Assembly (NCBI GenBank): GCA_016806715.1
Contig: CP060531.1
Coordinates: 1,783,966-1,847,965, forward strand
Source of the DNA: Thermoplasmatales archaeon
GTDB taxonomy: Archaea; Thermoplasmatota; Thermoplasmata; Thermoplasmatales; Thermoplasmataceae
Length of the DNA stretch: 64,000 nucleotides
Reading direction: 5' to 3'
Under the pieces are notes generated by a model that worked only from the letters and a program-made list of their open reading frames with translations, had not been told where the DNA came from and ran no database searches. The position numbers were made by a program, and so were the translations under genes. This document shows positions 49,589 to 56,346 of the stretch, in pieces. How positions within the stretch are numbered: position 1 is the stretch's first letter; each line of letters starts with the position of its first letter.

Positions 49589-49918
49589 ATGGCGAAATTC
49601 AGATGTTCTTCCGCGTTTGCCGATAGAAACATATATTTAGCGAATCGTATTCAGCGACTGGTAACTGTTTTGTCGGATAACAATAAAATTTCGGAAACAT
49701 TGATGCGGACAGCAGGATATGTTACCGTACCGAACATACTCAGGTTCATAGGCTTGGCCCTGATAATTATAGCTGCAGGTTTCTACATTGGATGGTCAAT
49801 AATCTATGGTACATGGACAGACATTGGACTTTACTCCTTTGTTGCGCCGGTTTTTGTTTTTGGAATACTTACCCTGATGTACGTTCAGGAAAAATTTGGC
49901 CAGAAACCGCAGAACTAG
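49589..49918 (+). CDS. Small two-helix membrane protein, unknown
   Basis: About 109 residues with two hydrophobic helices (LRFIGLALIIIAAGFYIGW and FVAPVFVFGILTLMYV) joined by a short loop containing YGTWTDIG. The family is not recognised. The start is uncertain: ATG 49589 is used, while a later ATG at 49703 would retain both helices. It converges on the VirB4-like gene with a 4-nt overlap. It may be unrelated to the secretion-like operon because it is on the other strand. Confidence 0.5.
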   Translation: MAKFRCSSAFADRNIYLANRIQRLVTVLSDNNKISETLMRTAGYVTVPNILRFIGLALIIIAAGFYIGWSIIYGTWTDIGLYSFVAPVFVFGILTLMYVQEKFGQKPQN

Positions 49919-51537
49919 TTGTTGATACCGTCTATCAGATATTTTTCCCTCTCTGTACATAGTATTCTTACTTTGCGTAAATGATTTTCTGAGAATACAA
50001 CACATTCAGAATAGGGGGATGTTTTTCCTCCCATGAGCGAGGCAAAATCTACTCCCTTGAACGCCTCATTTCCTGATATTGAGTAATCTAATGCATTGGA
50101 TGACTTTGTGCGGAAACCAAAAATTCTTGAGCTGTTGAGCAGCAGGGAACGGGACCTTGGGTTGGTGAAGAAATCCTCCGGGTTCTGGGTCATGCTTATG
50201 ACAGATGTGTCATAGTGCCGTGCGTGACGAGTAATCATATCCAGGAGAGCAGCGCATGCACTGTTATCGATAAGGTTGTGTGCTTCGTCAACAAGTATAA
50301 CCTTCCTTCCCGCGGTTGATGAGATCATTGATATCAGCGACAGAAGTATGGAAACCATGGAATGTTCATTGCCTGGGTCAATGTACTGTCCAGTCCTGAA
50401 AATAATTATCCTCCTGTCGTCTGGAACCACCTCATTGAGGAAAGCCGTTGAGAGAAGTTCAGATATTATCCTGGCCGAGGCATGCCCCGAGTCTTTTGAC
50501 CTGATGAATTGAAGCAGGCCTTTCATGGTCCTGGTCCCGTCAATTTCAAGGTATTCACTCAGTATATATCTCATATTCCGGGCATCATCCATGATATCAG
50601 GATCATAATGCATCAGCATTGAGAAGATGGCATCCAGCGTCTCAGTATTATTTCGGGCATCCCTCAGCGGGTCCAGATAATCCCCCTTCCCGATATTGAT
50701 AACTGTGGAGTCCTCTGGAAAAATAGACGATCCGTATTCTCCAAGCGGGTCGATTATATAGATGTGGTCCACAGCTCCTGTTATGATTAACCTACGTAAG
50801 ATCAATTTTGAAAAGAATGATTTCCCGGAACCTGTCTCGCCGAACGAAAGTACATTGAAAGAGTTTCCGTTGAAAAGCTCTAGAAAAACAGGCTTTTCGG
50901 TCAGGTCGTCCACGCCTACCGCTATTCCTCCGGTTGGTGGAGCCTGTTCAAAATGGAGAGGCAGGATACTTGCGACGGACAGTGAATCCATCAGATATTC
51001 TTTTTTTCCGTAAAAGAACGGGGTGAGCAGAGATACTATGTGCTGCTTTGTCAGATGTTTATCAATTTTAAAGGTGAGGCCCATAAATCCCAGAGAAGAG
51101 ATTAGCCTTCTTGCCCCTCTTGATAGTTCAACCGGATGGCTGTTATCCAGGATTATCTGCAGACTAGTCTTGTAAATGCGATGGTTGTTCCCCGAAATAG
51201 ATCCGAGAAGCTGTTCCAGGCTGTGGACGTGCCTCTTGAGCTGAAGGTACCTTGTCCTGTTCCTCTTTTCTTCATATCTCATCTCTGACACTCGCGAAGC
51301 CCGCATTCGGGCTATGATCCTTTCAGATGCCTTTACCGGCAGAGGAGAAAAAGATACCCTGTGTTTCAGGCGCAGGTTTGTGGACTCGACCAGTGAACAG
51401 TACATTCCTGCGGAATCATATTCAGCATCGGTCAATGACAGGAATGCAAAACTGTTGCCGATCTTTGCCTGAGGGCCCGTGATCCTGAACTTGCGTTCAA
51501 CGGAGACTTTCGCTTTACTTTCTTCCATTTCCCTCAC
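49915..51537 (-). CDS. VirB4/CedB-like secretion or DNA-transfer ATPase
   Basis: A 540-residue P-loop motor of the VirB4/HerA superfamily. Walker A is SFGETGSGKSFFSKL (~residue 232), Walker B is KVILVDEAHNL (~residue 416), and a TQNPEDFF sensor-like stretch follows. The N-terminal ~190 residues correspond to the VirB4 N-terminal domain. VirB4-type ATPases power type IV secretion pili, and the related CedB drives DNA import in Sulfolobales. It is the last gene of a four-gene operon with pilin-like, VirB6-like and VirB3-like genes. No relaxase or coupling protein is nearby. Confidence 0.85.
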   Translation of the reverse strand: MREMEESKAKVSVERKFRITGPQAKIGNSFAFLSLTDAEYDSAGMYCSLVESTNLRLKHRVSFSPLPVKASERIIARMRASRVSEMRYEEKRNRTRYLQLKRHVHSLEQLLGSISGNNHRIYKTSLQIILDNSHPVELSRGARRLISSLGFMGLTFKIDKHLTKQHIVSLLTPFFYGKKEYLMDSLSVASILPLHFEQAPPTGGIAVGVDDLTEKPVFLELFNGNSFNVLSFGETGSGKSFFSKLILRRLIITGAVDHIYIIDPLGEYGSSIFPEDSTVINIGKGDYLDPLRDARNNTETLDAIFSMLMHYDPDIMDDARNMRYILSEYLEIDGTRTMKGLLQFIRSKDSGHASARIISELLSTAFLNEVVPDDRRIIIFRTGQYIDPGNEHSMVSILLSLISMISSTAGRKVILVDEAHNLIDNSACAALLDMITRHARHYDTSVISMTQNPEDFFTNPRSRSLLLNSSRIFGFRTKSSNALDYSISGNEAFKGVDFASLMGGKTSPYSECVVFSENHLRKVRILCTEREKYLIDGINN

Positions 51538-51573
51538 TTCCAGACATAAGTACCGCCTACCGGGTTTCCGTCT

Positions 51574-52302
51574 TCATCCCATCAAGCCCATAACCTTCTT
51601 TCCTGCCTCTGTTGTGCTGACCACTGCCGCATGGATTCCAGCGCGGAGGAGTCCCTCACTCAGATTCTTCGCATCATTGGTGAGGATATCTATTGGCGGA
51701 GCAATCGCATTATGTGTTAGGATGCTGAGAAAAAAATACGGTCTGTGAAAGACGGTGCCTGAAATCAAGAAATCTATCAGACCATCATAATCCGCTGATT
51801 CAATATCATTACTTCCGGTTGAGTAACCCATGGGGTTTGCACTCACAGGAAATGTAACAATTTCGACTTCAGAAGTCAGCTGATCTATAGTTCCAGACAC
51901 CGCGATCGCCTCCGCCGATATTTCATCGGGAGCCATCAGCTGGAATGGCGTCGCTCCGATCTCCACAACAGAAAAGAGTCTTTTACCAGACCTAAAAACA
52001 CAAATTCCACTGCTGCAGTCTATGGATACTTCAACTTTCACGCTTCCTTTTTTCCGGGATGTCAGATCAACCAGCCTGTTAAAAAAGTATACAGGAAAGA
52101 AATCTTCTCCCAGTGGAATCAGTATTAATATGACTCCGACAACAGCGATGGATATCGATGCAAGTATACTGAAATGAAATGCTATTGCAGAAAGTATAAA
52201 CAAGATAGCCAGTGAAGAAACTTTTCTGGCATCAAATCCTCCAATCCTTGGAGTAAAGTTCCTTACATTTGATGGTATCTCTAATCCCTTTTGCCGGAAC
52301 AC
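51574..52302 (-). CDS. VirB3/PrgI-like two-helix membrane protein
   Basis: A 242-residue protein with two adjacent helices at ~32-70 (SSLAILFILSAIAFHF, SIAVVGVILILIPLG) and a long cytoplasmic domain. The VirB3/PrgI-type layout just before the VirB4 gene supports the assignment; sequence likeness is weak. The start is GTG 52302, because a minus-strand GAGGTGAT Shine-Dalgarno overlaps the upstream stop codon and ends 5 nt before it. A longer frame from 52338 overlaps the upstream gene and is less likely. Confidence 0.6.
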   Translation of the reverse strand: MFRQKGLEIPSNVRNFTPRIGGFDARKVSSLAILFILSAIAFHFSILASISIAVVGVILILIPLGEDFFPVYFFNRLVDLTSRKKGSVKVEVSIDCSSGICVFRSGKRLFSVVEIGATPFQLMAPDEISAEAIAVSGTIDQLTSEVEIVTFPVSANPMGYSTGSNDIESADYDGLIDFLISGTVFHRPYFFLSILTHNAIAPPIDILTNDAKNLSEGLLRAGIHAAVVSTTEAGKKVMGLMG

Positions 52303-52306
52303 TTTA

Positions 52307-53368
52307 TCACCTCTCTCTTCTGTATTTAAGTTTCTCACTCTCGATGGATTTCCAGTCTATGCCGCCATTCGGGCGACCCTGCATTCTTAATGGACCGGAA
52401 TTGCCTTTTTCCTTGCTCCAGATTGGATATGAAAGCATATTCCCAAGAGTTGGAACAGTCACATTTCCCGAAAGTGTGGATCCGGCATACCCAACCTGAT
52501 TGATAGCTCCGGATAGAACTGATGCGGCAGACATCTCACCATATGCGGACTGAAATGATGCAAACCTGTAAATCATTGAATTTGACATTATAAGAGTGGG
52601 TACAAGGGAGGCAAGGGTCAAAAAACCAATTTGCAGAATAAAATCTCCGTAAAAAATGTGTACAAGGATAAGCAGTATGATAACAAAGGTGGGAAGAACA
52701 GCAGACTCTATGAACAATAACCATAATTTTATAGCTACTTTTGAGGAATCTTTAGTCATAAGCAGAAGGCTGAAAACAGGGAGTAATATCATCAGGAAAA
52801 TTATGATTGCCTGCCTGATGATAAGCATTCCAAGCATCGTGAAAGTCGCGATGAATAGCCAGCTAAGAAGAAAGAACTCAATCAGCGCATTAGATGCTCC
52901 AATCTGGGATAGGGGGACAGAGATGTTTGAAGATATGTTTGTTACAGAAAGCAGGCTGTACCAGTTTATGTTTCCATAACCCCATAGAATTCCATAAACG
53001 TAATACGATGCCTGCACTATAAACTGACTGATTTCCAGGCTGCCCATGAAGACTATGACTGACATTGAAAAACGGATACCTAGTTCACCGAAGCCTGAGT
53101 TTTTGCCGAAAGATGATGAAAAGAGTAAATAGATCGAAGCTGCTACAATGACAAAAGCCGCGATTTCGAAGTAAATATTGTTAAACATGTAATAATAAAA
53201 ACTCATGAACGAGCTGTCTTTGGTTAAAAGAGGAAATGCATAGGAAGGCTGTAGCCCGAATTTGACGAGAAAATACCAGAAACCTCCTATGACACCAATG
53301 TAAGCTTCGTCAGCCAGATAGATAATTACCGAGAGGATTTTCGGTATATCTGATAAAAGGGATAGCAT
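52307..53368 (-). CDS. VirB6/CedA-like polytopic membrane protein
   Basis: A 353-residue protein with about seven helices (~10-30, 63-85, 95-125, 160-185, 185-205, 210-240, 245-270) and a polar C-terminal tail of ~75 residues rich in Ser/Gly. The topology and the long periplasm-side loop fit VirB6/TrbL, the channel component of type IV secretion, and CedA of the crenarchaeal DNA importer. Its position between the pilin-like and VirB3/VirB4-like genes is the main support. Confidence 0.65.
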   Translation of the reverse strand: MLSLLSDIPKILSVIIYLADEAYIGVIGGFWYFLVKFGLQPSYAFPLLTKDSSFMSFYYYMFNNIYFEIAAFVIVAASIYLLFSSSFGKNSGFGELGIRFSMSVIVFMGSLEISQFIVQASYYVYGILWGYGNINWYSLLSVTNISSNISVPLSQIGASNALIEFFLLSWLFIATFTMLGMLIIRQAIIIFLMILLPVFSLLLMTKDSSKVAIKLWLLFIESAVLPTFVIILLILVHIFYGDFILQIGFLTLASLVPTLIMSNSMIYRFASFQSAYGEMSAASVLSGAINQVGYAGSTLSGNVTVPTLGNMLSYPIWSKEKGNSGPLRMQGRPNGGIDWKSIESEKLKYRRER

Positions 53369-53369
53369 C

Positions 53370-53660
53370 TTACTGCCCTAATGCCACGTAGTTGAAGATA
53401 GCGTATATTACACCGCTTATAGCGAGAACATAGATCAGAGTCCCAATTAGGGCATTCTTGAGCCTCCCTCGCGCCTCGAATCTCTTGTTCTCATCAGTGC
53501 TGAAAAAACTCAGTGCGATAGGTATCCACAACAGAGCAACAATTACTGCGGAGACGGAAATAACTACTTCCAGGAGCCTGCTCATGGCCCCTGATAACTG
53601 CGCTGTTGCCGTCACATAATTTAAAACCTGAGTTATACCAATATGGGTTAAAGATGCCAT
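53370..53660 (-). CDS. VirB2/CedA1-like pilin subunit
   Basis: A 96-residue protein with the VirB2/TrbC layout: a hydrophobic helix (LLEVVISVSAVIVALLWIPI), a short basic-charged loop (DENKRFEARGRLKN) and a second helix (ALIGTLIYVLAISGVIYAIF). VirB2 and CedA1 pilins have exactly this helix-charged loop-helix hairpin. There is no classical signal peptide beyond ~25 residues of polar N-terminus. It is first in the operon; a TATA box is centred ~26 nt upstream. Confidence 0.65.
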   Translation of the reverse strand: MASLTHIGITQVLNYVTATAQLSGAMSRLLEVVISVSAVIVALLWIPIALSFFSTDENKRFEARGRLKNALIGTLIYVLAISGVIYAIFNYVALGQ

Positions 53661-53680: not shown

Positions 53681-53692
53681 TTGTATAAATTG
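53681..53692 (-). promoter_or_regulatory. Promoter of the VirB-like operon
   Basis: Minus-strand CAATTTATACAA is centred ~26 nt before the ATG of the VirB2-like gene, predicting a leaderless polycistronic transcript of the four genes. Confidence 0.6.
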
Positions 53693-56247: not shown

Positions 56248-56346
56248 CCCGGCTTAGCTCAGTTGGTAGAGCGGCGGACTGTAGAGGGAAGACTGGCAAA
56301 AACCGCCGTTATCCGCAGGTCTCTGGTTCAAATCCGGAAGCCGGGA
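56248..56346 (+). tRNA. tRNA-Tyr (GTA) with an intron
   Basis: The acceptor stem is CCCGGCT/AGCCGGG with discriminator A and the C1-G72 pair that marks archaeal tRNA-Tyr. The D arm is GCTC-AGTTGGTA-GAGC, the anticodon stem is GCGGA/TCCGC and the T arm is TCTGG-TTCAAAT-CCGGA. The anticodon loop is interrupted: after CTGTAG comes a ~26-base insert (about 56285-56310), then A and the 3' stem. An intron between positions 37 and 38 is the canonical archaeal site, cut by the BHB endonuclease. Exact splice points may shift by a base. No CCA is encoded. Confidence 0.94.

Follow-up and report, generated by a model that had tools for sequence, protein, structure and literature searches.

What is a compact set of conjugation-like genes doing at a conserved place in an archaeal chromosome, with no relaxase beside it? 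The question is raised by a 64,000-nucleotide stretch of DNA (the window) from a Thermoplasmatales archaeon of the family Thermoplasmataceae (GenBank assembly GCA_016806715.1, contig CP060531.1, positions 1,783,966 to 1,847,965), in which four tightly packed open reading frames (ORFs), all on the minus strand, lie within positions 49915-53660. A preliminary description, made from the sequence alone, had proposed the four ORFs as an operon for DNA uptake or exchange resembling the Ced and Ted importers; all four are confirmed here where that description placed them, and its interpretation as a whole is partly supported, with import of DNA as a conditional part of it. We judge it probable that in this operon a minimal type IV secretion system (T4SS) of composition VirB2-VirB6-VirB3/VirB4 has been domesticated, kept on the chromosome in Thermoplasmataceae and used for the cell-to-cell exchange of chromosomal DNA in the manner of Ced and Ted.

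The product of gene 4 has no membrane helix and its Walker A and Walker B motifs are intact: in an alignment of 18 sequences, G233, E234, G236, S237, G238 and K239 of Walker A and E418 and H420 of Walker B are invariant, and K412 and D417 are conserved in at least 90%. Its family profile matches are to NF045975 (Mbov_0397; 1e-25), TraC (9e-19) and CD1110 (1.5e-18), and its best solved relative is a VirB4 of Thermoanaerobacter type (PDB 4ag5, 6.6e-13), whereas the matches to CedB (3.5e-4) and CedD (7.5e-5) are much weaker, scoring 19.3 bits against a cut-off of 700 for CedB (NF041017) and 21.6 bits against a cut-off of 600 for CedD. A maximum-likelihood tree groups gene 4 with VirB4, as the preliminary description had it, and apart from HerA and VirD4-like proteins (support 100/99), with the VirB4 proteins of Thermoplasmataceae monophyletic (97/97). 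Gene 4 is a VirB4-family ATPase, closer to VirB4/TraC than to HerA/VirD4, and lies outside the CedB family.

Genes 3 and 4 together are a single VirB4 split in two. One protein of 631-703 aa stands in their place in Thermoplasma-, Ferroplasma- and Cuniculiplasma-type genomes; the gene 3 profile covers residues ~4-215 of these fused proteins (best E 2e-30), the gene 4 profile covers the remainder (best E 1e-135), and the fused relatives align over VirB4 positions 34-756 (E 1.4e-32). In hhalign comparisons, for which the unrelated neighbour families used as controls all remained below 1%, gene 4 aligns with Bacillota VirB4 over positions 213-763 (99.9%, E 9e-33) and the soluble part of gene 3 over residues 25-190 (81%), while the N-terminus of gene 3 matches bacterial PrgI/VirB3 (85%, E 6e-6) through the motif IPxNV...IxG. 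The VirB3/PrgI assignment made earlier for gene 3 accordingly fits its hairpin but not the whole protein, the rest of which is the first half of a VirB4 N-terminal domain (NTD) whose second half is carried by gene 4. At least five changes between the split and the fused state are needed on the tree. Read-through of the stop between the two genes was considered and rejected: ORF spacing and relative frame vary among the split relatives, and the junction must therefore be a true gene split, neither a sequencing error nor a site of read-through. That VirB4 has been repeatedly split or fused at one point within its NTD bears on how a VirB3-VirB4 unit is built.

The two membrane proteins upstream complete the set. 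Gene 1, whose family is strongly conserved, encodes two hydrophobic helices linked by a charged loop (H3-52 and H57-94 in the model), the layout of VirB2; the T4SS_pilin family PF18895 is matched by 35 of 38 members of its family (best 3.4e-7), and the window's protein itself matches the Mbov_0395 pilin-like family (NF045849) at 6e-5, all of which points to a VirB2-like pilin. For gene 2, which the preliminary description assigned a VirB6 layout, the evidence is structural. Its AlphaFold2 model (pLDDT 76), searched with Foldseek against 350,542 PDB chains, has R388 TrwI/VirB6 as its best three matches (probability 0.96-1.00, E 0.018-0.030), and only designed helical repeats come near them in score; a polytopic channel protein of VirB6 type is the predicted identity. 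The invariant R185 and P197 of the family align with an R...P motif in several bacterial proteins. Gene 2 has no match in sequence-profile searches, and profiles of neither gene 1 nor gene 2 have a meaningful match among PDB sequences.

The operon is a vertically inherited chromosomal fixture of the Thermoplasmataceae, thermoacidophilic archaea that include Thermoplasma, Ferroplasma, Cuniculiplasma and their relatives. Of 77 sampled genomes of the family, 73 have the ATPase and 71 the pilin, far beyond chance, and a scan of the phylum at genome completeness of at least 85% finds the operon near-universal in three families (f1, f3 and f15) and missing from most others; named hosts in the profile scan are Ferroplasma acidarmanus Fer1, Acidiplasma aeolicum, Thermoplasma sp. 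and Cuniculiplasma sp. The same housekeeping genes flank it at about 25 of the 48 loci that were compared, Cuniculiplasma being one of the several genera concerned (some loci are cut by contig ends), with thioesterase, rpiA and winged helix-turn-helix genes on one side and p120, THEP1, Trm1, UbiA and GGGPS genes on the other; in the Ferroplasma group the operon is at another chromosomal place. Distances for the operon correlate with those for flanking genes (r 0.50-0.81, p 0.001) about as two flanking genes do with one another (r 0.59-0.80). Ratios of non-synonymous to synonymous substitution (dN/dS) of 0.06 for the pilin, 0.06 for VirB6, 0.20 for gene 3 and 0.14 for gene 4 indicate purifying selection, and the operon is single copy with a GC content resembling that of its surroundings. 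A search for plasmids found none covering 80% of VirB4, a search of viral contigs found none encoding the pilin, and a PF03432 relaxase is present in 0 of 47 Thermoplasmataceae genomes, other relaxase families lying outside that search. The operon thus has neither the PF03432 relaxase nor the variable location and plasmid or virus carriage of a conjugative element, and the earlier proposal of a fixed operon, rather than one integrated plasmid, is borne out family-wide.

The expression signals of the operon are listed with its genes in Table 1. The sequence block around the A-box TTTATACA is kept in 4 of 4 aligned genomes of the window's genus and, together with the spacing of the A-box, is consistent with the leaderless promoter proposed earlier. 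Gene 3 could be read as an ORF of 254 aa, but the GTG at 52302, giving 242 aa, is the likelier start because the stop codon of gene 2 (TGA) falls within the gene 3 Shine-Dalgarno sequence GAGGTGAT, an overlap already noted in the preliminary description. Around the operon, a short convergent ORF at 49703-49918 (plus strand) with two hydrophobic helices shares its last four bases with the end of gene 4, and a 99-nt Rfam tRNA match at 56248-56346 (plus strand; 58 bits), for which ARAGORN makes no call, is probably an intron-containing archaeal tRNA.

Table 1. Features of the operon, in window coordinates and in order of transcription.
Feature	Positions	Strand	Description and basis
A-box (TATA) TTTATACA	53682..53689	-	Candidate leaderless promoter, 22-29 nt before the pilin ATG; read from sequence
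Gene 1, putative VirB2-like pilin, 96 aa	53370..53660	-	Two helices and charged loop; profile matches and model
Gene 2, putative VirB6-like polytopic membrane protein, 353 aa	52307..53368	-	Seven hydrophobic transmembrane peaks; AlphaFold2 model
Shine-Dalgarno GAGGTGAT of gene 3	52306..52313	-	Contains the TGA stop of gene 2; read from sequence
Gene 3, PrgI/VirB3-like hairpin and first half of VirB4 NTD	51574..52302	-	ORF open to 52338
Gene 4, second half of VirB4 NTD and ATPase domain, 540 aa	49915..51537	-	Profiles, hhalign, PDB match and tree
Walker A GETGSGKS, gene 4	50818..50841	-	Alignment of 18 sequences
Walker B KVILVDEAH, gene 4	50278..50304	-	Alignment of 18 sequences

To which known machine does this set of parts belong? 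Its nearest relatives are the VirB4 systems of Gram-positive-type conjugative elements, with CedB more distant. The core of the MPF-FATA T4SS of Gram-positive and mycoplasma elements (VirB4-CD1110/Mbov_0397) has the same order, pilin-VirB6-PrgI-VirB4, as seen in Bacillota loci; it supplies the best family matches of both ATPase and pilin, and the PrgI motif IPxNV is common to the two. The Thermoplasmataceae operon differs from it in having no relaxase, VirD4 or cell-wall hydrolase, in having the VirB3 hairpin joined to VirB4 and VirB4 split within its NTD, and in being chromosomally fixed. Ced and Ted are described as T4SS that were domesticated, with homologs of VirB2, VirB4 and VirB6 and no relaxase (PMC9905601), and the comparison with them was made by family profile for CedB and CedD and by description for CedA, CedA1, TedA and TedC. 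Ced (CedA, CedA1, CedA2, CedB and CedD, in Sulfolobales and Desulfurococcales) is likewise a chromosomal, relaxase-free VirB2, VirB6 and VirB4 set, and a VirB4 NTD spread over two polypeptides recalls CedB/CedD (PMC11868833); however, most of the operon's ATPases match FATA VirB4 at 1e-22 to 1e-30 and CedB at 1e-7 at best, its host is of euryarchaeal type, and it has a VirB3/PrgI part, whereas VirB3 has been said to be absent from archaea (PMC11868833). Ted (TedA, TedB and TedC, in Thermoproteales) shares its domestication and a pilin gene that immediately precedes the gene for a seven-helix VirB6-like protein, but the 96-aa pilin of the window has two hydrophobic segments and no third, N-terminal one, and so probably lacks the extra N-terminal signal segment described for TedC, which sister-family pilins do have, and no ParA, Rad50 or HerA gene is found at the operon locus. 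The VirB2-, VirB6-, VirB3- and VirB4-type parts proposed earlier are supported, while the ATPase resembles CedB less than it does Gram-positive-type VirB4; the operon may work like Ced or Ted yet cannot be filed as either.

As has been pointed out by Beltran et al. (2023; PMC9905601), domestication of the conjugation apparatus for DNA transfer was, to their knowledge, unreported outside Ced and Ted. Elements of the present operon have been noticed before. In Cuniculiplasma divulgatum, Golyshina et al. (2016; PMC5155288) list CSP5_1185-1189 as a secretion cluster of VirB4, a multipass protein and small membrane proteins, and separately a lone TraG/VirD4 ATPase; the cluster is very probably the same operon, and the available portion of that paper treats it as secretion components only, with no mention there of a pilin, VirB3, a split or fused VirB4, fixation or a comparison with Ced. 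VirB4 was also mentioned in 'E-plasma' in 2023 (PMC10354927), and Guglielmini et al. reported many archaeal VirB4 homologs and one integrated conjugative element (ICE) in A. boonei (PMC3158045). In the open-licence literature we found no description of the operon as a domesticated DNA-exchange machine, but a VirB4 cluster of this kind had already been mentioned for Cuniculiplasma. In an Aciduliprofundum-like genome (G080, L210:8826-13685), five consecutive genes with pilin-like domains lie upstream of VirB6-like and VirB4 genes.

How might such a machine work? By analogy with R388 and Ced/Ted, gene 1 subunits would be held in the membrane and then polymerise into a thin, conjugative-type pilus, for which gene 2 would provide the membrane channel and base. 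Gene 3, through its VirB3/PrgI hairpin and the first part of the VirB4 NTD, would tether the ATPase to the channel, and gene 4 would be the motor, extracting pilins, driving single-stranded DNA, or both. DNA ends would probably be readied not by a relaxase but by the host HerA-NurA-Mre11-Rad50 set, which forms an operon elsewhere in the genome; in that genome HAS-barrel and NurA are found only at the HerA locus and not at the VirB4 operon. Single-stranded DNA made by these end-resection enzymes would be taken up or passed on, import being the preferred direction, and recombined into the chromosome, perhaps also in repair. Circumstantially, DNA exchange is suggested because Ferroplasma populations are highly recombining mosaics (PMC2704941) and F. 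acidarmanus Fer1 carries the operon. The operon most likely moves DNA between cells.

Several points weigh against this. T4SS parts also serve in protein secretion or adhesion, and the VirD4-like ATPase of most family members could make the system an exporter. The support for two of the parts is modest: the window's pilin scores 3e-4 against PF18895, under the curated cut-off, and a Foldseek search with its hairpin is uninformative, while the VirB6 match of gene 2 is at E ~0.02. Comparison of either family by hhalign with a handful of bacterial sequences gave nothing significant.

The alternative that survives best, which we nonetheless regard as unlikely, is that the product of the operon is a pilus or contact organelle that serves in adhesion, in biofilms or in the delivery of proteins, with VirB4 powering only the extraction of pilins. 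The four make up a minimal parts list for a VirB2-type pilus, and the operon contains no gene for DNA processing; furthermore, a clear pilus-type (PF00437) ATPase is absent from genera g10, g18, g19 and g14, including the Ferroplasma clade, all of which have the operon, so that a VirB2-type pilus may be their only one. Yet the closest homologs are conjugation ATPases, Ced, the archaeal relative of known function, carries DNA (PMC11868833), and the operon is not linked to any candidate gene for an effector or adhesin.

Somewhat less plausible still is a chromosomal DNA exporter, a conjugation donor machine served by a VirD4-family ATPase encoded elsewhere. The preliminary description had found no relaxase, integrase, plasmid gene or coupling ATPase, and the first three absences stand; the genome does encode a 660-aa TrwB/VirD4-like ATPase (PF10412, 1.6e-14) at 439-444 kb, and the last is therefore true of the window only. 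Such an ATPase occurs in most of the family, and in sister family f3 a second ATPase of the HerA/VirB4/VirD4 superfamily directly follows VirB4. The f3 protein is, however, weakly VirD4-like (TrwB 0.0028), the ATPase of the window's genus sits behind FlaI- and FlaJ-like genes away from the operon, and the PF03432 relaxase is missing from all 47 genomes searched. The Ferroplasma/g18/g19 clade keeps the operon without a VirD4-like ATPase or a clear PF00437 ATPase, and the operon therefore depends on neither.

If the operon were what an integrated conjugative element or plasmid had left behind, persisting by chance, its homology to conjugative elements would be accounted for, and A. boonei, of the same order, does have an ICE (PMC3158045), but we rejected this very improbable explanation on the shared chromosomal site across genera, the co-divergence with neighbouring genes and the dN/dS values, to which the single copy, the lack of a PF03432 relaxase and of an integrase and the unremarkable GC content may be added. 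That gene 4 is a housekeeping translocase of HerA/FtsK type whose membrane partners are unrelated is scarcely credible, for although DUF87 matches HerA and VirB4 alike, the tree and the domain content (VirB4 NTD and PrgI parts) refute it and a genuine HerA-NurA pair is encoded elsewhere.

Some of these other ATPases are of interest in themselves. The cluster of FlaI-FlaJ and TrwB/VirD4-like ATPase (L100:2855-8157, 438.9-444.2 kb; also in L203 and L204) is found, among the genera compared, only in that of the window, joining pilus- or archaellum-type genes to an ATPase resembling a DNA pump. Past about residue 430 this ATPase (L100:6175-8157) has a pattern, IPDGLL...YILEAE, that recalls PD-(D/E)XK or Replic_Relax nuclease domains. 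At the f3 loci (L205, L206, L085 and L089) a small protein follows the second ATPase, and the one in L206 matches GINS/Sld5 at 1.2e-4.

Returning to the domesticated exchange machine, it is tempting to go further and to suppose that it is a third domesticated archaeal conjugation machine, derived separately from Ced and Ted from an MPF-FATA-like element, which has exchanged chromosomal DNA in a sex-like gene flow since the ancestor of the Thermoplasmataceae and underlies the recombinant populations of Ferroplasma; we offer this fuller history tentatively, as quite possible but short of probable. If the operon does exchange DNA, the domestication of conjugation machines would extend to a euryarchaeal-type lineage, in one family of which it is near-universal, and an archaeal machine would have a VirB3/PrgI part, which archaeal systems had been believed to lack. 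The operon could then explain the heavy mixing of genes in these archaea, and it offers a concrete, deletable four-gene candidate for the free recombination of Ferroplasma and other acid-mine archaea.

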